Below, in pieces: positions 12,370-46,590 of a stretch of 46,590 bases of DNA. Source of the DNA: a virus. Location of the stretch: the IMG/VR virus record IMGVR_UViG_3300033048_000051, positions 1 to 46,590 of that record. One strand, written 5' to 3'. The first letter of the stretch is position 1, and each line of letters begins with the position of its first letter. The position numbers and the translations under genes are program-made. The notes beneath the pieces are model-generated. The model made no database searches and was not told the DNA's origin. It saw only the letters and a list, made by a program, of their open reading frames with translations.

Positions 12370-15134
12370 AAAACTGGAACATACAGGACTATGATAACAG
12401 CTCAGGCTCCGGTCAACAGTCAGCTCCTGGCAAACAGTGGGATATCAATGATTACACTTCCACCGAAGCCCCTATTAAGAAAGTGAGAGAACCAGAACCT
12501 GTTAAAGAAACTGTTTATGATAAAATGGCTTCAGTTGGTGAGGAAGCAGCAGAAGCGGTTGGTTCAGCTCTGGCTGGCCCTTATGAGATGATAGGGCGTA
12601 TGTTCCAAGGTTCTGCCTATGTTGGTGAGACTATCGGTGGTGCCATAAACTCTGTTGTTGACGGGGATTATATGGACAGCCCTTTATCACTGGAAGGCTC
12701 TAATTTAATAACTTCATTTTTTAGAAGTATGTTATCCCCGCAACCAGCCGACACAGCAGACCGTGAAGCTCCAGCTCAAGCAACATGGAGAGGGATGTCA
12801 GATATTATAGGCGAAGGAGTTGATACAGGTACAGAATTCCTTGAGACTGTAGGGGGTACAACAAAGCCTGATATAGAAGACAGGTACATAAAAACCCTCT
12901 CAGGGTATGTTGGACTAGGCGCTGCAGTAACACAGAACATAGCTATGTACGGGCAAAGAATACTCGCTAAAGGTGTAATAAACCCTGGTATTTTCCAGAA
13001 AATAGCTATAGGCGTTGCAAAGAACCCTGTAGCTGCTCAAAAAGTAGAAGCGGGTATTAATACATTAGCAGCCTTATCAGGACAAACAGTAGAAGAAGTT
13101 GCACCTGATAGCCCGTGGTTACGCATGGGTGTTGAGGTTGGATCAGCCGTATCAGCAGGTGGTTTATATAAAATAGGACAGAAAAGCGTTGATTTCCTTG
13201 TATCAAAAGGTGTTAAAGAAGAAATAGCTAATAATAGTGTAGCTGAATACTTAATAAACATAGTAAAAGAAGACGCTGGTTTGCTAAAAACGTTGAAGAA
13301 AAACACTGATCTAGCTATAGCTGAAGGTGTGTCTGTAACATCAAAAAACAACCCTAAAGGTTTAACTGTAGCAGACAGATCAGGTAACACTGAATTAAAG
13401 GCCGCGCAACAACAACTGGACACGGCCTTTGATGCCCCTTCAGGTGGTATAACAAGGGAGCAGCAAAAACAACAGTTAGCCCAACAAGAAATAAAACAGA
13501 AACTTAACATAGAAAACCCTGACCTTACAGGTCTGCAAGCAAAGGTCGGGCTAGAGCTACAGAAGAATATAAAACAAGCTGAGGATCATATTAACGTTCT
13601 CCTTCAGAATGCTACAGCAGAAGCTGAGAGAATGGCGCGTGTAGCCCCTTATGAAGCCGGTACTAAAGGTCTTGAGCTTATTAAACAAGCAGAAGATTTA
13701 AGCTGGAAAAACGTAGGTGATGTTTACAAAAACATTAAAAGTAAAGCGAGAGTGAAAGGGTTAATTGTTAGCAAAACCCTTAAACAGATAGACAGGGACA
13801 CTAACTTACCCGCTTCAAGGATAAAAAACCTGGAGGTTAGCGCTGAACTAAAAGAGAATATTCTCAGTTTTTATAACATACAAAAAGATACTTATTTCAA
13901 TCTGGAATCCCTTAAGAACATCCTCCCAAGCCTTAAAGAGGAAATGAGGATAGCGTCATCACAAGGTCGGTCGCAAACAAAACGCACATTAGCTAGAATA
14001 ACAGACGCAGTTATGGAAGAGATGGATTCTTTCCCTGTAGGTGCCCAGTATAAAGAGGTTCTTGAAGCCGCTAATAAAACAGCTCGTACACACTTCGACA
14101 GATTTAACAGCGCTAACATAGAACTTTTAACGCGTGTAGATTTGCAAGGGGCACAGAGAGTGTCGCCAGAAGATTTCATAAAAAGGGTTATAAAAACCTA
14201 TAATGGCACTGATAGTGTTACTGCAGTTAAAGCTTTTAAACATGCTATAGGCAACGATGTGGTATCAAAGGACTGGTTAAAAAATGCTTACTTGTTAACC
14301 CTTAAGCAGACAAGGCAAGCTGGTGAACCCGTTAACCCTAAAACTGTAAAAGATTTCTTACACTCACATAAAGAATCTCTCCGTGAGGCAGGTATATACG
14401 ACGAGCTTTCTAAAATGCCAGCTAGTGAAATAGCAACTGAACTAGCTTTCGCAAGATCTAACCTTAAGCAGAGCATGGTAGAGTGGACTAAAGGCCGGTT
14501 AGCGGAGTTTGCAGGGACAGCTGACATAGAGTCGCTGGTTCAATCAAAGATAAATAACGGGTCTTTGCCTTACTACCTAAAAAAACTTAAGTCAACAGGT
14601 AACGCAGATGTAGCTGAGGGTGTAGGGCATGTTGCATGGCAAACACTAGCTAAAAAAGCGTACACAGGAGCGCCTTTAGAAAATGGTACGTCTATGATAA
14701 CTGGTGATGTTCTAAGGAAAATACTCGAAACATCCCCTAAAAACATAATAGGTGCAGTAGGCAAAGACGGGTACAGGAGGCTTAAAGGTCTTGTTAAACT
14801 GATGGATATGACGCAAAAGACTAACGTTAAGGTAAAACACGAAATACTTTCTATGGCTGATAGTAACATAAAAGAGAAGTTAATAACTGGTTTCAGGGCA
14901 GCGGCACACGGGTTCGTAAGGCCCGATCTTATTGTAGCACAGGCAGGGATGAGGACGTTCAAAGCTATGCGTACAGTAGAGTCACAAAATCTTTTAAGGG
15001 AAGCTTTGCTTAATGAAGAACTTTTCAAAAAACTTGTACTAGCCGGTGAAAGCAGAAGAACTCGTAACACGTTAAGGGGTTTGTTCTCTGCAGCAGTTCC
15101 AATAACTGTTAATGGCGTGTGGGGTGAAGAGTGA
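12366..15134 (+). CDS. Large internal virion (ejection) protein
   Basis: 922 residues, the largest protein here. A Gly/Ser/Gln-rich disordered N-terminus has a repeated WNIQDYD / WDINDYT motif (residues 3-9 and 28-34), possibly a packaging or anchoring peptide. A hydrophobic Ala/Gly-rich stretch spans about 55-250 (DNA-channel or membrane insertion candidate), and long Lys/Glu helices follow to the end. No peptidase or transglycosylase motif was recognised. Analogous by position to P22 gp16 or T7 gp16. Overlaps the upstream gene by ATGA. Confidence 0.6.
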   Translation: MKNWNIQDYDNSSGSGQQSAPGKQWDINDYTSTEAPIKKVREPEPVKETVYDKMASVGEEAAEAVGSALAGPYEMIGRMFQGSAYVGETIGGAINSVVDGDYMDSPLSLEGSNLITSFFRSMLSPQPADTADREAPAQATWRGMSDIIGEGVDTGTEFLETVGGTTKPDIEDRYIKTLSGYVGLGAAVTQNIAMYGQRILAKGVINPGIFQKIAIGVAKNPVAAQKVEAGINTLAALSGQTVEEVAPDSPWLRMGVEVGSAVSAGGLYKIGQKSVDFLVSKGVKEEIANNSVAEYLINIVKEDAGLLKTLKKNTDLAIAEGVSVTSKNNPKGLTVADRSGNTELKAAQQQLDTAFDAPSGGITREQQKQQLAQQEIKQKLNIENPDLTGLQAKVGLELQKNIKQAEDHINVLLQNATAEAERMARVAPYEAGTKGLELIKQAEDLSWKNVGDVYKNIKSKARVKGLIVSKTLKQIDRDTNLPASRIKNLEVSAELKENILSFYNIQKDTYFNLESLKNILPSLKEEMRIASSQGRSQTKRTLARITDAVMEEMDSFPVGAQYKEVLEAANKTARTHFDRFNSANIELLTRVDLQGAQRVSPEDFIKRVIKTYNGTDSVTAVKAFKHAIGNDVVSKDWLKNAYLLTLKQTRQAGEPVNPKTVKDFLHSHKESLREAGIYDELSKMPASEIATELAFARSNLKQSMVEWTKGRLAEFAGTADIESLVQSKINNGSLPYYLKKLKSTGNADVAEGVGHVAWQTLAKKAYTGAPLENGTSMITGDVLRKILETSPKNIIGAVGKDGYRRLKGLVKLMDMTQKTNVKVKHEILSMADSNIKEKLITGFRAAAHGFVRPDLIVAQAGMRTFKAMRTVESQNLLREALLNEELFKKLVLAGESRRTRNTLRGLFSAAVPITVNGVWGEE

Positions 15135-15373
15135 AATTCCCGTATATAGGTGCAGGTGCTACACTGGCTATAGCTATCACTGTGGGTACACTGGCAGGGG
15201 TGACCAGGTTAAGCACAGTCGAGGCGAGAGTACAGGTACTTGAAGTGTCTGAAAAGATAGATAAGTTAGAACTACGACAAGATATATCAGCATCAGAGAA
15301 TAGAATCAGGGATGACATACACCAGTTAAGAACGGATGTTAGATCAATTAATGAACTACTTATGAGGAAATAG
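15131..15373 (+). CDS. Membrane-anchored coiled-coil protein, spanin- or holin-like
   Basis: 80 residues starting at a GTG that overlaps the stop of the ejection protein (GTGA). Residues about 6-27 are an N-terminal transmembrane helix, and residues 30-80 are a charged amphipathic coiled coil (VEARVQVLEVSEKIDKLELR). This is the architecture of an inner-membrane spanin or a small accessory lysis protein. It lies directly upstream of the endopeptidase, supporting a lysis role. Confidence 0.55.
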   Translation: MKFPYIGAGATLAIAITVGTLAGVTRLSTVEARVQVLEVSEKIDKLELRQDISASENRIRDDIHQLRTDVRSINELLMRK

Positions 15374-15500
15374 GTTCTAACTTAGAGCGTAGTCATATCC
15401 GTTGCTATTTAGTAAAAAAGAGATGTGTACGCCTCTTAATACGAAAAAGAAACTTACATGTTTCTAAAAGGTATCTACTTAAAACACAAAAGAGGAACTA

Positions 15501-15842
15501 ATGAAACTAGGCAAAAAACAAGAACTGTTCATGCGGTTACTACCCTGTTTGATACATAAAGCTCACGAGCTAGGGTTTCAGATAAGGGGCGGTGATCTTT
15601 TCAGGGACCCGAGAGTGCATGGAGACATAACTGAAAGGCTCGGGTACGGTGCAATGGGGTCTGCCCATAAGCTTAAACTGGCGATAGACCTTAACTTATT
15701 CAAGGATGGTAAGTACCAGAATAAAACGGAACATCATAAAGAACTAGGTGAGTGGTGGGAGAACCACCATAAACTATGCAGGTGGGGTGGCAGGTTCAAC
15801 GATGGGGGGCATTACTCTTTAATCCACAACGGTAGAAAATAA
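15501..15842 (+). CDS. M15-family peptidoglycan endopeptidase (endolysin)
   Basis: 113 residues. The zinc-site pattern of the M15 (VanY / L-alanyl-D-glutamate peptidase) family is complete: SAHKLKLAIDLN (His56, Asp63) and GGHYSL (His104), with the R-D substrate region near residue 36. It resembles T5-type endolysins, which cut the peptide stem in Gram-negative peptidoglycan. No signal peptide, so release needs a holin or spanin partner. A 127-base leader with short inverted repeats and an AAGAGGAACTA ribosome-binding site precede it. Confidence 0.85.
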   Translation: MKLGKKQELFMRLLPCLIHKAHELGFQIRGGDLFRDPRVHGDITERLGYGAMGSAHKLKLAIDLNLFKDGKYQNKTEHHKELGEWWENHHKLCRWGGRFNDGGHYSLIHNGRK

Positions 15843-15855
15843 TGAGGACAATAAA

Positions 15856-16017
15856 ATGAATTGGTTTATGAGGATGGCATTACCTTACTTTATGCCTATG
15901 TTGATTAACGCTCTGGCTGACATGGTGCGACGGTCAGATAACACGATAGATGACGTAGCATTAGCTATGTTCATCGAGAACCAGGACGCTATACTAGAGG
16001 CTATGAAAAGAGGATAA
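15856..16017 (+). CDS. Small amphipathic protein of the lysis block
   Basis: 53 residues. Preceded by GAGGACAATAAA, 13 bases after the endopeptidase stop. The N-terminus (NWFMRMALPYFMPMLINALA) is hydrophobic and could insert in the membrane; the rest is acidic helix ending MKRG. By position and composition it could be a holin or antiholin, but this is weak. It is the last rightward gene before the leftward early block. Confidence 0.55.
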   Translation: MNWFMRMALPYFMPMLINALADMVRRSDNTIDDVALAMFIENQDAILEAMKRG

Positions 16018-16037
16018 CGTCCCTGCACAAGGATGTG

Positions 16038-16358
16038 TCACTCTTTAAATTTACTGCCTGTGCTCTGACCTTTCTTATCAGGGCATACACAGTTCCCGCA
16101 GTTACCTGTACCACAGCTCTTCTTGCTAGGCTCAGTATTCTTTTTGTCAAAACCAGGTAGATTCTCCTCAAGCAAGACAGGCTTGCCACAAGCTTCCAAG
16201 TACATCAGAAGAGACTGTTTTATGTCCTCTGTTGTGTAACCAGCCCACGCTACCTGTTCAGGGGTTTCGCTGTATAACTCTATCCTCCCTTTCACGTTGT
16301 AGTAAACCTCGTGTAACCCTATAAGACCATCTATATCTATTAATCTATAATTCCACAT
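16038..16358 (-). CDS. Hypothetical early protein with HEVYYN motif (paralogue of 16571-16795)
   Basis: 106 residues from the ATG at 16358, chosen because AGGTGG lies six bases upstream. Residues 3-30 (YRLIDIDGLIGLHEVYYN, LYSETPE) match the 74-residue product two genes upstream, so the two arose by duplication. The C-terminus has a Cys-rich tail (CGTGNCGNCVCPDKK) that could bind metal. Last gene of the leftward transcript. Function unknown. Confidence 0.65.
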   Translation of the reverse strand: MWNYRLIDIDGLIGLHEVYYNVKGRIELYSETPEQVAWAGYTTEDIKQSLLMYLEACGKPVLLEENLPGFDKKNTEPSKKSCGTGNCGNCVCPDKKGQSTGSKFKE

Positions 16359-16367
16359 TTGTACCAC

Positions 16368-16568
16368 CTATATTTTAACTTTCGTTGTTCTTCTGGTCTC
16401 GCAAATGAAACGCACCTTAGTGCCATCACTGGTAACACCATCTTTTATTATTCTGTTCAGAGTGAACGCCTCTTTCTTACAATCGAAATAACCCGAGTAA
16501 GATCTTAAATCATGTTCCACTGAGGCACCCATTACTGTTATTATTGCTACTAGCATAAAACTTAACAT
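16368..16568 (-). CDS. Small exported or membrane-anchored protein
   Basis: 66 residues. Residues 1-16 form a hydrophobic segment (MLSFMLVAIITVMGAS) that could be a signal peptide or anchor, followed by a soluble part with two Cys (positions 30 and 56) that could form a disulphide. Its ATG follows the stop of the upstream gene by two bases and shares its GAGGTG ribosome-binding site. Function unknown. Confidence 0.6.
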   Translation of the reverse strand: MLSFMLVAIITVMGASVEHDLRSYSGYFDCKKEAFTLNRIIKDGVTSDGTKVRFICETRRTTKVKI

Positions 16569-16570
16569 AA

Positions 16571-16795
16571 CTACACCTCACACAATTCAATCTTTTGATC
16601 GTCCAGCTCATCCGGCAGATCATCTTCTTGTATTACAGACCTCGAGAATGCTTCTTTTACCTTAAAGGGTTGAAGGTAAGGCTCAGGGTGCTCGTTGTAC
16701 AGGCAAGCATCTCCTCCATCGTTGTAGTAAACCTCATGGATAGTTACATACCCTTCGTTCCACTGTACTAGTCTGTAATTATTTGTCATATTCAT
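16571..16795 (-). CDS. Hypothetical early protein with HEVYYN motif
   Basis: 74 residues; NNYRLVQWNEGYVTIHEVYYN at the N-terminus parallels the protein at 16038-16358, and a QEDDLPDELDD segment parallels its LLEENLPGFD. GGGGGATTA lies just upstream of the ATG. No known domain. Small acidic protein, probably expressed early. Confidence 0.65.
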   Translation of the reverse strand: MNMTNNYRLVQWNEGYVTIHEVYYNDGGDACLYNEHPEPYLQPFKVKEAFSRSVIQEDDLPDELDDQKIELCEV

Positions 16796-16860
16796 TAATC
16801 CCCCTGTCTCATACTTAGTATCGCAATATGTGGATAAATTGCCCGCTTATTACTCTGTTA
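16795..16860 (-). repeat. Diverged copy of the primase-helicase 5' region
   Basis: About 66 bases here resemble 29198-29262: both contain CTT(A/G)GTATC(G/T)CAATA, GTGG and CCGCTT(A/C)TT(A/G)CTCTGTTA. In the second copy the segment includes the start codon and first codons of the primase-helicase; here the matching ATG (16811-16809) opens only a five-codon frame. Both copies end exactly at the left boundary of a complete cassette. Confidence 0.7.
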
Positions 16861-17082
16861 GGCACATAACCTTTTTCTAAAAATAGTCACATCAGGCGCA
16901 CTAATATATTCTTGCGCTTGTTTAATATCGCCTTTATCTAAAGCATTTTCAATTAATTCAAGTCGTAAAATTTCATGATCCATTGACCAGGCTCTGCATA
17001 TCTCAATTTTAGCCATTTTTCTAACTTCATGAAGGCTTTCTGGCGTATCGCTCTTAAAAACAAGTGTTGTAAATTTGCTCAT
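16858..17082 (-). CDS. Cassette A-encoded hypothetical protein
   Basis: 74 residues, MSKFTTLVFKSDTPESL..., with an Arg/Lys/Glu-rich helix and no recognised domain. The start has GGAGACTGAACT upstream. The TAA stop is formed from the TTA of the cassette core (GTTAGGC), a feature shared with five other genes in the region. Function unknown; its presence as a single-gene cassette suggests an accessory role. Confidence 0.6.
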   Translation of the reverse strand: MSKFTTLVFKSDTPESLHEVRKMAKIEICRAWSMDHEILRLELIENALDKGDIKQAQEYISAPDVTIFRKRLCA

Positions 17083-17184
17083 AGTTCAGTCTCCAAAAGT
17101 GCCTAACAAGGCTCATTAACGCGGACTGCCTATGCTCCGCTGGTTTTCTAAAGCCGCATACTGCAGCCGGTTATTCACAAATCG
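16858..17184. mobile_element. Integron-type gene cassette A (complete)
   Basis: 327 bp. Left boundary G|TTAGGCAC at 16857-16865. The right end carries an attC-like palindrome whose outer arm GTGCCTAAC (17099-17107) is the exact reverse complement of those first bases, and whose inner core is G|TTATGTG at 17184. In integrons the excised circle rejoins these two parts, so exact matching across the whole cassette is diagnostic. It carries one 74-residue ORF in the leftward direction, opposite to the usual attC polarity but in line with phage early transcription. Confidence 0.65.
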
Positions 17185-17190
17185 TTATGT
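17099..17190. other. attC-like recombination site A
   Basis: On the + strand the left half (CTAACAAGGCTCATTAACGC, then GGACTGC) pairs with the right half (GCAGCCGGTTATTCACAAAT, then CGTTAT): outer arms TAAC/GTTA, inner arms CGG(A)CTGC/GCAGCCG with an unpaired A and an unpaired G in the left half. The loop region carries TATGC...GCATA. Such extrahelical bases in L'' are the hallmark of attC hairpins. About 90 bases. Confidence 0.65.
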
Positions 17191-17490
17191 GTAATCAGTA
17201 ATGTTTCTTTTACCCGTTGCAAAAAGAATACTCATAACGTGGTTACCAGTAGCCTCGCAATATCCATGGTAAACCTCTGGTACATTTATATCCCATGTTT
17301 GAATGCAGTCCCAAACTAAGTTAAAATCATCAGCTATCAGATCACTTGGTTTTGGCTTCGGCCAAGGATAGTTTGGCGAGGAGGTGTCACACATAACAAG
17401 GTCATCCAACGCGGGCTCAATAGCTTCTGCGTTTTCTCTTTCACCTGTTATTTCTTTACGTTCTTGCTCTGTCATATATAGTTGTGACAT
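17185..17490 (-). CDS. Hypothetical protein, probably cassette-borne
   Basis: 101 residues, acidic N-terminal half with many Glu/Asp (ERKEITGERENAEAIEPALDD) and a C-terminal VPEVYHGYCEATGNHVMSIL segment. No domain recognised. The TAA stop lies in the right core of attC site A (GTTATGT), and a half-site with GTTAGG lies just upstream of its start at 17515, so this is probably a second cassette whose own attC lost its left arm. A GGAGAACGAAT ribosome-binding site precedes the ATG. Confidence 0.55.
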   Translation of the reverse strand: MSQLYMTEQERKEITGERENAEAIEPALDDLVMCDTSSPNYPWPKPKPSDLIADDFNLVWDCIQTWDINVPEVYHGYCEATGNHVMSILFATGKRNITDYT

Positions 17491-17497
17491 ATTCGTT

Positions 17498-17521
17498 CTC
17501 CGGTTAATTTAATCGTTAGGT
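17498..17521. other. attC right-half remnant
   Basis: CTCCGGTTAATTTAATCGTTAGG. Same pattern as the right half of site A (GCAGCCGGTTATTCACAAAT, CGTTA) and of the 20790 remnant: CCGGTTA, about four to eight bases, ATCGTTA. No matching left half is seen. Confidence 0.5.
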
Positions 17522-17526
17522 TTCAA

Positions 17527-20729: not shown

Positions 20730-20787
20730 GTCTTGCCCTTAAGTGTTATACGTTCTTTACTGATGTCATCATCAAACTATAAAAGTG

Positions 20788-20817
20788 TGCAGCCGGTTAT
20801 GTTTAATCGTTATAGGG
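20788..20817. other. attC right-half remnant at the left edge of the Mom-like segment
   Basis: GCAGCCGGTTATGTTTAATC then GTTATAGGG. Shares GCAGCCGGTTAT and AATCGTTA with the right half of attC site A. No left half is seen to its left, so this is half of a former site. The core G|TTATAGGG at 20809-20817 supplies the stop codon of the Mom-like gene. Confidence 0.5.
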
Positions 20818-26039: not shown

Positions 26040-26065
26040 TGTACCCCTAACTAGTTCCGTAAAGA

Positions 26066-26090
26066 TTGTCCGCTTATTGCTCTGTTATAT
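26066..26090. other. attC half-site remnant
   Basis: GTCCGCTTATTGCTCTGTTA ends in the core G|TTATAT. Same pattern as the half-sites ending at 16860 and 29262. The core supplies the TAA stop of the 32-residue gene. Confidence 0.5.
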
Positions 26091-26894: not shown

Positions 26895-26913
26895 AAGTAA
26901 ATAAAGTTTACTT
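26895..26913 (-). terminator. Hairpin after the 81-residue gene
   Basis: 7-bp stem AAGTAAA / TTTACTT with a 5-base loop, followed on the - strand by AT then AGTTTTAG. It lies between a coding gene and the tRNA-like element, so it may separate transcripts. The stem is A/T-rich and the T-run weak. Confidence 0.4.
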
Positions 26914-26927
26914 AATTACCCCGCTTA

Positions 26928-27173
26928 TTACCTTGTCCTATCAATATACTGCTCTCTTTCCTTAAGGGTTTTTAACAAAATACAGTACGCGCAATTTTGT
27001 TCAGAATAATGGCTTTGATTCCTTTCTTGTTTATGTTTAATACATAAATGTAAGCGACTACGTTCTTCGTCAAATTCTTTAGCTTCTCGCTTCTTTTTAT
27101 TAGAAATAATTAATCTCTTTATGTCTTCACTGTAAGTAAACATAAAAACTATTCTTTCAATTATATTTTTCAT
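26928..27173 (-). CDS. Hypothetical protein in a degraded cassette
   Basis: 81 residues, Lys/Glu-rich, with two Cys (QNCAYCI) and a hydrophobic N-terminal start (IIERIVFMF). Ends next to the degenerate half-site CCGCTTATTACCTTGTC at 26921-26937. Just upstream of its start, TCTCATAAC (27194-27202, + strand) looks like an attC outer arm. No domain recognised. Confidence 0.55.
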   Translation of the reverse strand: MKNIIERIVFMFTYSEDIKRLIISNKKKREAKEFDEERSRLHLCIKHKQERNQSHYSEQNCAYCILLKTLKEREQYIDRTR

Positions 27174-29214: not shown

Positions 29215-29262
29215 GCTTGGTATCTCAATACGTGGTAAAAGATTCCGCTTCTTGCTCTGTTA
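29198..29262 (-). repeat. Cassette-flank sequence at the primase-helicase start
   Basis: Second copy of the element seen at 16795-16860; here it holds the start codon and first codons of the primase-helicase. Shared core CTTGCTCTGTTA and CCGCTTCTTGCTCTG at its right end lead straight into cassette B. Confidence 0.65.
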
Positions 29263-29466
29263 TAAGGCTTGTTTAAGCTTTGGTAGCCAGTGTAAACGAA
29301 CCCCTTTAAACCATGCGTATGTATAAAATATACAAAGCACAAATATTCCCCATTGCTCGGCTGTGTAAGCTGAATAAAACCAAAATGGTTGCCCTGCCAT
29401 GCCAAACAAACACGCGTACTTACGCCAGTTGTCGCGGGTATCCTGGCTTAACCAAATTGCTACCAC
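29260..29466 (-). CDS. Cassette B-encoded small membrane protein
   Basis: 68 residues from a GTG at 29466. Two hydrophobic segments (WRKYACLFGMAGQPFWFYSAY and IFVLCIFYTYAWFKG). Similar membrane proteins known to me begin about 12 residues earlier with EQIAIALTGV; the frame is open over that stretch here but contains no start codon before an in-frame stop near 29510. Either a start has been lost on insertion or the GTG is used. Stop TAA lies in the cassette core. Confidence 0.55.
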   Translation of the reverse strand: MVAIWLSQDTRDNWRKYACLFGMAGQPFWFYSAYTAEQWGIFVLCIFYTYAWFKGVRLHWLPKLKQAL

Positions 29467-29587
29467 ACCAGTTAATGCTATTGCTATCTGTTCCGATTTC
29501 TCACCTCTTTAATTTACGCCTCATAACAAGCGCATACAGTCGGACATTTTGTACGCTGCGCTCCCAAAATTCCGCTGATGCAAGTCG
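29260..29587. mobile_element. Integron-type gene cassette B (complete)
   Basis: 328 bp. Left boundary G|TTATAAGGC (29259-29268). The right end is a full attC-like palindrome with outer arm GCCTCATAAC (29518-29527), the reverse complement of the left end with one mismatch, and core G|TTATGTG at 29587. Contains a single leftward ORF for a small membrane protein. Size and layout match cassette A. Confidence 0.65.
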
Positions 29588-29594
29588 TTATGTG
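29518..29594. other. attC-like recombination site B
   Basis: Left half ATAACAAGCGCATACAGTCG then GA; right half TCCGCTGATGCAAGTCGTTA then T; central arms CATTTTG and CAAAAT around TACGCTGCGCTCC. Left and right halves pair over about 20 positions with an unpaired T and C in the left half, as in L''. TAACAA at one end and CGTTA at the other match the usual top-strand orientation of attC. About 75 bases. Confidence 0.7.
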
Positions 29595-29818
29595 TTTAAA
29601 GCCTTGTCAATTCTATCAAGCGATAAATCGGCCGAACCCTTCAACTCATGCTTATAAATTTCACAATCAGTCCGTCCTAAGCACTCAACCCATGTAGAGA
29701 ACAATTTTGCATCTTCTAGCGCAGTTTCTAACGCCTCAGCTCTTTCTGCGTAACCTTCTAGTGCTTTACCAAAATCACCGCATTCATGGTCTTGTTTTAG
29801 CTGTTCGCTTAATTTCAT
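29588..29818 (-). CDS. Cassette-borne hypothetical coiled-coil protein
   Basis: 76 residues from the ATG at 29818, with GGAGAAGAAAG upstream. Strongly helical and acidic (EGYAERAEALETALEDAKLF). The TAA stop is in the core of attC site B. Upstream at 29841-29850 the arm CACACATAAC mirrors the GTTATGTGT at the other end of the segment, so this is a second cassette whose attC right half was replaced by the nuclease gene. Confidence 0.6.
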   Translation of the reverse strand: MKLSEQLKQDHECGDFGKALEGYAERAEALETALEDAKLFSTWVECLGRTDCEIYKHELKGSADLSLDRIDKALNT

Positions 29819-29850
29819 CTTTCTTCTCCAATTTAAACGCCACACATAAC
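29588..29850. mobile_element. Truncated cassette carrying the 76-residue gene
   Basis: Left boundary G|TTATGTGTT; right arm CACACATAAC at 29841-29850 followed by a left-half-like AAGTTAAATCGCC. No right half of an attC is seen before the exonuclease gene, so the site is truncated. Confidence 0.5.
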
Positions 29851-29853
29851 AAG

Positions 29854-30660
29854 TTAAATCGCCGTAGCTGTACATATTTGCTCTTTTTCGTACTGTATAC
29901 CTTGTTCGTACTGATCCAGTCTTCCATTTCTTAATTGCCAATGACGTAATAATAACATAAATTCCTCTAAGTGTGTATCTGTGTACGTTTCTATTTTTAC
30001 ATCAGCCTCACCTTTAGATAATTCACGCCCTATAAATACATTAGCATATAAAGGCTCTTTTAACCCGACCCCTTCCCCGTAAGCAGATAACTGCAGCTTA
30101 TTCTCGGGATAGACCATGCTTTTCTTATGGTTCATTTTTATTAAGTCTTTAGTTTTAAAATCTAGCACTATCCCACTGTACATGCCTGATGATGCACAGT
30201 GAAGATCTATCTTGCCCCCGTAGCCATGCTTACAGAAAGACATCTCCGGTACCCATGCCTGCTCGCCGAACAGGTCATCCATCTTTGTAATAACTGCCTG
30301 CACGTAAGGGTTATGACCGTTAGAACCATCCAGGAACCAACCTTCTAGCAGGTTATGAATCTCTGTACCCTTGTCTGCTGCCTTTTTACCTTTTTGTTTT
30401 GACACGGCCCAGAGGCGTTTCTCGTACATGTACGTCGATTCGCCATCATGCGGCGGTACTGTTAAAGCGGCCTGGAGCATTTCGTTTATCATCCACCTTG
30501 TTAGTGCTGGTTTATCTAATTGCCCTATAATAGTTGTAACTGATGGAAAGAGGTTAAGTTTTTTAGCATCTCTTAACGTCGTGCCTCGCGTCTTTGTGGG
30601 GTCCTTTGCCATAGGCTGTGTATAGCAAGCCTCACCTTTATCATTATACCAATGACCCAT
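29854..30660 (-). CDS. PD-(D/E)XK nuclease (RecB/Cas4-type exonuclease)
   Basis: 268 residues. Motifs GTEIHNLLEGW (about residue 95), GGKIDLHCASS, IVLDFKTKD (catalytic Asp...Lys) and QLSAYGEGVG. This pattern is typical of phage exonucleases involved in recombination or host DNA degradation. Its role here is probably DNA processing during replication. The 3' end overlaps the left arm of the truncated cassette at 29850, suggesting the cassette was inserted at or just after its stop. Confidence 0.75.
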   Translation of the reverse strand: MGHWYNDKGEACYTQPMAKDPTKTRGTTLRDAKKLNLFPSVTTIIGQLDKPALTRWMINEMLQAALTVPPHDGESTYMYEKRLWAVSKQKGKKAADKGTEIHNLLEGWFLDGSNGHNPYVQAVITKMDDLFGEQAWVPEMSFCKHGYGGKIDLHCASSGMYSGIVLDFKTKDLIKMNHKKSMVYPENKLQLSAYGEGVGLKEPLYANVFIGRELSKGEADVKIETYTDTHLEEFMLLLRHWQLRNGRLDQYEQGIQYEKEQICTATAI

Positions 30661-31067
30661 TATAAAAGCCTCGCTGTTTTTGCTAGTGCCAGCACAACAT
30701 CTTTGTGTTCTTTCCAGAAAGACAGGGCTGACCTATCCATGCGTTGTATAACATCGTCAGGGAAGGCTTCCCACTCTGTTATAGTGTGTGTCTTGCAGCC
30801 TATTTGTAAGCTATCATTATTACAAACGATAGCCCACCGGAAACCTACTATAGACAACACACCACAACCTCTTAGGTTAGCCCTTCTTAGGTCAGCCTCT
30901 TTGAGGTCAGCCCCTTTGAGGTCAGCCCCTTTGAGGTCATCCCCTCTTAGGTTAGCCCTTCTTAGGTTAGCCCTTCTTAGGTCAGCCCTTCTTAGGTCAG
31001 CCCTTCTTAGGTCAGCCTCTTCATATATAATAACACCTTCTTTGTTCTTTATTTTATAGGTCTTCAT
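30660..31067 (-). CDS. Pentapeptide-repeat protein
   Basis: 135 residues from the ATG at 31067 (GGAAAGAGAAC upstream). Residues about 18-70 contain about ten A(D/N)L-type pentapeptides ([20 protein letters not shown]), which fold as a right-handed quadrilateral helix and can mimic DNA; the C-terminal 65 residues form a separate domain ([18 protein letters not shown]). In bacteria such proteins can protect topoisomerases (Qnr) or bind other factors. The phage role is unknown. GTG or other longer starts upstream would overlap the 57-residue gene. Confidence 0.75.
30865..31022 (-). repeat. 15-bp tandem repeats encoding the pentapeptide coil
   Basis: About ten imperfect 15-bp units (AGGTTAGCCCTTCTT and AGGTCAGCCCCTTTG on the + strand). 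Such arrays can gain or lose units by slippage, changing coil length. Confidence 0.75.
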
Positions 31068-46234: not shown

Positions 46235-46590
46235 AGCTTACGCACACATAGCCATGTACGGTTTTGGTGCCTTTCAGGGTGCTAGTGGCTCGGGACTGTC
46301 TAACTGTGTTATACTGGATATGCCTCTTACTTCCGGCTTAGGAAGCAACATAGGCTTTGCAACTTCAATACGACCATCTAACGGTACTGTGCTGGATTTT
46401 GAACAAGTGATGCACGAATGCCTTGATAATGAGGTAAGAGAGTCGGGGGCTAGGCGTGTACATAATAGAATTAAGAAAAGTGATGATTTAAGTGACGTGG
46501 GTGTGAAGAACGGGTGGGGATACCTGGGGAATGACACTATCGTGTTTACCCCGAATTCTGAGTTGAGACTAAACGGAGTTGATTTAGCCG
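46227..46590 (+). CDS. Fibre-like protein, alternative N-terminus (truncated by window end)
   Basis: Begins MPRAYAHIAMYGFGAFQGAS..., 42 codons unlike the left copy's 39, then continues exactly as the left fibre from GFATSIRPSNG through the 239-bp repeat, in the same frame. The window stops inside it. If the genome is circular, this N-terminus would be the first part of an alternative fibre gene. Confidence 0.7.
   Translation, partial: MPRAYAHIAMYGFGAFQGASGSGLSNCVILDMPLTSGLGSNIGFATSIRPSNGTVLDFEQVMHECLDNEVRESGARRVHNRIKKSDDLSDVGVKNGWGYLGNDTIVFTPNSELRLNGVDLA
46352..46590 (+). repeat. 239-bp direct repeat, right copy
   Basis: Identical to 218-456. The left flank differs from the left copy. It runs to the last base of the window. 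Confidence 0.97.

Follow-up and report, generated by a model that had tools for sequence, protein, structure and literature searches.

Probable integron-type gene cassettes with antisense genes in two arrays of an uncultivated tailed phage

The window analysed here, which comprises all 46,590 nucleotides of the IMG/VR virus record IMGVR_UViG_3300033048_000051, contains a unit of 327 bases (cassette A, 16858-17184, + strand in attC orientation) that is delimited exactly by two G|TT cores. It has matched ends of nine bases and a 48.1-bit attC site at its 3' end. Judged from the sequence, this unit is with a probability of roughly 0.88 an integron-type gene cassette carried by a phage, and we infer that it can be excised. 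What is new here is the double array of cassettes, a gene in common with a bacterial integron and, above all, a recurring design in which the cassette genes run antisense to their attC sites.

An earlier note on this DNA had described the ends of cassette A as exact reverse complements. Indeed, GTTAGGCAC (16857-16865) and GTGCCTAAC (17099-17107) match at nine of nine positions, and their starts are 242 bases apart. The left boundary reads G|TTAGGCAC, and 17184 is the first base of the following core, G|TTATGTG. The core sites R' (G|TTRRRY) and R'' (RYYYAAC) are present in cassette A as GTTAGGC and GCCTAAC; the R' after attC1, GTTATGT, is one base off GTTRRRY and close to the GTTATGG of the integrons used for training (see below). 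The note had also considered a chance match unlikely, which is borne out by a count of every GTTA 9-mer with a perfect reverse complement 150-400 bases downstream. The window holds five such matched ends compared to a mean of 0.44 and a maximum of three in shuffled sequences, and 0 of 100 first-order Markov shuffles reached five. A chance origin was therefore rejected. Of the five pairs, three delimit cassettes A, B and D, while the ends of cassette C match at nine of ten positions. In the modelled excised form of cassette A, the two ends are paired as the outer stem of a hairpin, in line with the proposal that, once the cassette has been excised as a circle, they would form the outer arms of a single attC.

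Since a purely structural scan for inverted repeats was too unspecific and was dropped, a trained site model was used in its place; a covariance model was likewise dropped because the automatic attC alignment was poor. The four-block position-weight model is based on 13 sites from outside the window, namely from a Desulfuromonas locus (L003), from other Desulfobacterota integrons found via TIGR02249 and from one Vibrio plasmid array. Its block layout was set with knowledge of the window sequence, while none of its weights was derived from it. The model ranks three window sites top, all on the + strand: attC1 (17099-17191; model match 17101-17190) with 48.1 bits, attC2 (17389-17522; model match 17391-17521) with 38.0 bits and attC3 (29518-29594; model match 29521-29593) with 35.0 bits. 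The next candidate scores 23.5 bits, the best of 60 shuffles 29.3 bits and the best site in 771 kb of other phage DNA, which itself lies within a cassette-bearing phage, 33.7 bits. Most training sites score 35-52 bits and one scores 26. Hairpin folding, expressed as z relative to mononucleotide shuffles, gave -4.9 for attC3, the best-folding site of the window, -3.3 for the closed form of cassette A, -1.8 for attC1 in place and -1.05 for attC2. The latter has a variable centre of about 130 bases, and its outer stem is kept while its inner stem is weak.

The polarity of the sites bears on how the cassettes are to be read. On the - strand, every gene is preceded by a short leader that follows CTTG|TTA, and its stop codon falls within YAAC, as in ordinary cassettes. 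This would fit cassettes that are read on the - strand, where their genes would be in the normal sense direction and their attCs canonical. However, the three sites score only 17.7 (attC1), 19.9 (attC2) and 11.1 bits (attC3) on the opposite strand, 18-30 bits below the + strand, and because of these far lower scores we regard + as the canonical attC strand. Furthermore, attC1 consists of R'' GTGCCTAAC, L'' AACGCGGACTGC, L' GCAGCCGG and R' GTTATGT. Compared to L', L'' contains one additional A, and this extra base (CGGACTGC versus GCAGCCGG) sits in the left arm on the + strand, as it does in attCs linked to integrases. The same polarity is shown by an attC, 77.5% identical to attC3, from a plasmid array of Vibrio pectenicida. 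A - strand reading is thus highly improbable, and the cassettes are treated in the following as having their attCs on the + strand.

Gene A (74 aa, 16858-17082, - strand) is antisense to attC1, a point on which the earlier note was silent, and the first three bases of the cassette, read as their complement, provide its stop codon TAA. A homologue with 74% identity occurs as an ordinary gene in the IMG/VR phage G002 (L002), and another with 53% identity is found in the Desulfuromonas locus L003 as a cassette in an array adjoining an integron integrase (TIGR02249, 476 bits, cut-off 265). Homology thus indicates that gene A is a real gene. A 74-residue gene that always occurs with the same flanks had been named as the observation that would speak against a cassette; the flanks in L002 and L003 are quite different. 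Gene A had no match in Pfam, PHROG, NCBIfam or PADLOC, its structural model, which is of moderate quality (pLDDT 75), had no match in the PDB, and a search of 297 genomes of the Desulfuromonas phylum returned only the already-known copy. ORF B (101 aa, 17185-17490, - strand) starts inside attC2 after AACCGGAG, reads through this site and has its stop codon in the boundary TTA; residues 44-89 match Burkholderia phage FLC9 with 48% identity. Gene C (29260-29466, - strand) codes for a small membrane protein (phrog_22312, membrane protein), is antisense to attC3 and also stops in the boundary TTA. Its homologues belong to unrelated phages of Vibrio, Escherichia, Dickeya and Variovorax. Gene D (76 aa, 29588-29818, - strand) is antisense as well and stops in the boundary TTA, and a search for homologues of it found none. 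Function searches gave no known function for any of the cassette genes. The same small gene family is thus present in phages and in integrons.

These homologies also bear on the nature of the sites. Like terminators or regulatory repeats in a phage operon, the elements are inverted repeats with co-directional genes on either side. In addition, a gene-strand attC arm can supply a Shine-Dalgarno sequence: AACCGGAG within such an arm is placed accordingly for an ORF that begins in the attC and continues through it, both before ORF B (17490) and near position 17190 of the phage contig L107. It is nonetheless hardly credible that the sites are intergenic hairpins of this kind and not attCs. Their score and strand asymmetry match attCs adjoining integron integrases, gene A has a homologue that is a cassette in an integron with an integrase, attC3 resembles the Vibrio array site, matched ends are not expected of terminators, and an Rfam search gave no match.

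Cassette A is directly followed by cassette B (331 bases, 17185-17515, + strand), which reads TTATGTGT...ACACATAAC...G|TTAGG and has ends matching at nine of nine positions, with attC2 at the 3' end. At least two further cassettes make up a second array (29260-29853), which is located 12 kb from the first, between the genes for the phage primase/helicase (27622-29214) and an exonuclease (29854-30660). Within it, cassette C (328 bases, 29260-29587, + strand) has the ends GTTATAAGGC and GCCTCATAAC (9/10) and attC3 at its 3' end. Cassette D (29588-29853, + strand) again has the ends TTATGTGT...ACACATAAC (9/9), followed by AAG|TTA at the exonuclease stop codon. It contains no complete attC, which we read as loss of the site.

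An element of 23-45 bases ending in CTCTG|TTA lies to the left of both arrays and recurs at 26084. Left of cassette A it forms a half-site with a right arm only (16835-16857, + strand, GCCCGCTTATTACTCTG|TTA). The copy left of cassette C (29237-29259, + strand) shares about 45 bases of similarity with the one at 16857, and the copy at 26062-26084 (+ strand, GTCCGCTTATTGCTCTG|TTA) precedes a short - strand ORF whose end lies in this TTA. Left of both arrays, the half-site occupies the position expected for attI, and these half-sites might represent either degraded attCs or a landing site similar to attI. Another isolated attC right arm (20785-20812, + strand, GCAGCCGGTTATGTTTAATCG|TTA) has the stop codon of the next gene in its TTA and is, at 20809, the highest-scoring right arm in the window (23.2 bits). 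The partnerless attC-like arms at 26062-26084, 26913-26936 and 20785-20812 are located in the same operon, after gene stop codons. Pattern searches at the DNA level with the right arm of attC1 and with the half-site gave no match in any other viral contig.

The window contains genes for terminase, portal protein, ribonucleotide reductase (RNR), polymerase and helicase and shares the genome plan of Caudoviricetes MW202796, which together identify a tailed phage. An identical direct repeat of 239 bases is present near both ends (218-456 and 46352-46590), a pattern expected of circular permutation or terminal redundancy, although bases 1-217 lie outside the repeat. A - strand gene at 30853-31047 contains 15-base tandem repeats in nine overlapping register copies, which suggests a pentapeptide-repeat-like product. 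A tyrosine recombinase (PF00589) was not detected in the window, and consequently cassette mobility would need the integrase of a host. With attC1 and attC2 adjacent, attC3 elsewhere and the integron integrase absent, the window shows the features of a CALIN and not those of a complete integron (intI and attI beside an array). The earlier note had suggested looking for a related phage with an uninterrupted junction. A scan of viral sequences with the 922-aa tail-region protein found no relative, and the best matches to the RNR (about 60% protein identity over most of the length) and the capsid protein (47-48% identity) were too distant for a comparison of flanks; a terminase search likewise gave no relative near enough.

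The lack of an integrase raises the question of whether the cassettes are fossils, genuine in origin but brought in by ordinary or illegitimate phage recombination and never moved by an integrase inside phages. The weak attC2, cassette D without its attC and the isolated half-sites at 16857, 20809, 26084 and 29259 would fit this, as would the occurrence of genes C and A in phages without attC. On the other hand, cassettes A, B and D have retained ends that match at all nine positions, the boundaries coincide exactly with G|TT, the score of attC1 is like that of sites next to live integrases, and recombination has been demonstrated for other phage attCs (PMC9892861). We therefore regard fossil cassettes as rather unlikely and favour cassettes that can still be exchanged, while the poor predicted fold of attC2 and the loss of the attC from cassette D indicate that part of the arrays may be dead.

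All four cassette genes are encoded on the - strand, antisense to the + strand attCs, and they all take their stop codon from the TTA of a G|TTA boundary. The usual cassette layout of one sense gene followed by an attC is thus found in none of the four. To compare this with other cassettes, we counted gene orientations at sites detected with the trained model, using crude ORF calls. Integrons, represented by one phylum and one plasmid, had 28 sense and two antisense genes, whereas phages had four sense and 13 antisense genes, with the provirus L125 left out and with IMG/VR contigs that are possibly misclassified (L132 has an integrase-like gene). The contrast was significant by site (Fisher p 1.4e-6), although sites within one contig are non-independent, and by contig (p 0.0075; this table also counts TJE1 as sense). 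Extra antisense cases came from a scan of viral contigs for the canonical left arm, which is blind to gene direction. At 14 phage sites the stop codon lies exactly in R'. The gene A homologue accounts for one of the two antisense cases among the integrons, and the rare but existing antisense cassettes in integrons (2/30) show that the sense direction is usual but not strictly defining.

In phage G002 (L107, IMGVR_UViG_3300033388_001919), small genes lie between attC-like palindromes at about 14437-17430. Three sites of 31-34 bits are on the - strand with the genes on the + strand, further palindromes recognised by eye score below the threshold, and the rows at 15749, 16052 and 16340 of the opposite-strand scoring were out of register and ignored. 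Another viral contig (L114, 8041-10125) has four attCs of 36-38 bits, each followed by an antisense gene with its stop codon in R'. An integrase-bearing Desulfobacterota integron (L155, 10762-10820) has antisense cassettes with the stop codon in R' as in the phages, and these are possibly phage-derived.

Since the cassette genes share the - strand direction of the surrounding operon, the phage would transcribe them. If the infected host possesses an active integron, its integrase would bind the folded bottom strand of an attC and excise or exchange the cassette at G|TT. In this way, the phage could pick up, shuffle and spread small accessory genes although it encodes no integrase itself. Loss of cassette A alone would leave the junction ...TTACTCTG|TTATGTG, and loss of cassettes A and B the junction ...CTCTG|TTAGGTTTC. 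In Vibrio cholerae, attC bottom strands on the lagging-strand template strongly raise excision (PMC11023631). The attC bottom strand of the window is the gene-sense strand, and its GC skew changes sign with gene direction, which would fit forks moving with transcription, although transcription alone can produce such a skew. It may be hypothesised that with such forks the phage attC bottom strand would lie on the lagging-strand template, a recombination-prone arrangement. We further propose, tentatively and at somewhat less than even odds, that phages have a cassette class of their own with an antisense gene, a stop codon in the R' TTA, a recombining bottom strand that is gene-sense and exchange-ready arrays, a possible origin of the antisense cassettes that are rarely found in bacterial integrons. 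This touches on the open question of the origin of integron cassettes and of their routes from one bacterium to another. Phages as carriers are supported by the present case of a tailed phage that has two such arrays and shares a gene family with a bacterial integron. Should the antisense design be confirmed by a larger survey, it would be a simple mark of phage-borne cassettes, and the placement of the attC strands during replication would give it a testable rationale.

Among known systems, the sedentary chromosomal integron of the Desulfuromonas sp. MAG BM515 (L003, PKUF01000047) has the attC consensus in common with the window and contains the 53% gene A homologue as a cassette, likewise antisense to its attC. 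Unlike the window, it has its own integrase (476 bits to TIGR02249), and its other genes are mostly sense. The array on the Vibrio pectenicida plasmid pLMG19642-1 (NZ_AP024891) provides the attC that is 77.5% identical to attC3 and of the same polarity; it differs in being located on a bacterial plasmid and in having its genes sense to the attC. Genes for TIR-domain and macro-domain proteins adjoin attC sites in this array (L071, 1167-3135). CALINs in virulent phages have already been published (Qi et al. 2023, PMC9892861), and their attCs recombine with IntI1 (PMC9892861). That study describes the cassettes of TJE1 and PH101 as running in one direction and does not mention antisense genes, and we found no other paper that mentions such an orientation. 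In Pseudoalteromonas phage PH101, the genes are antisense to the attCs as in the window, whereas those of Tetrasphaera phage TJE1 are sense. Like the published phage CALINs, the window has two or more attCs without an integrase and short genes of no known function; unlike them, it represents a new uncultivated phage with two separate arrays, with gene A in common with a bacterial integron and with stop codons placed in the boundary TTA.
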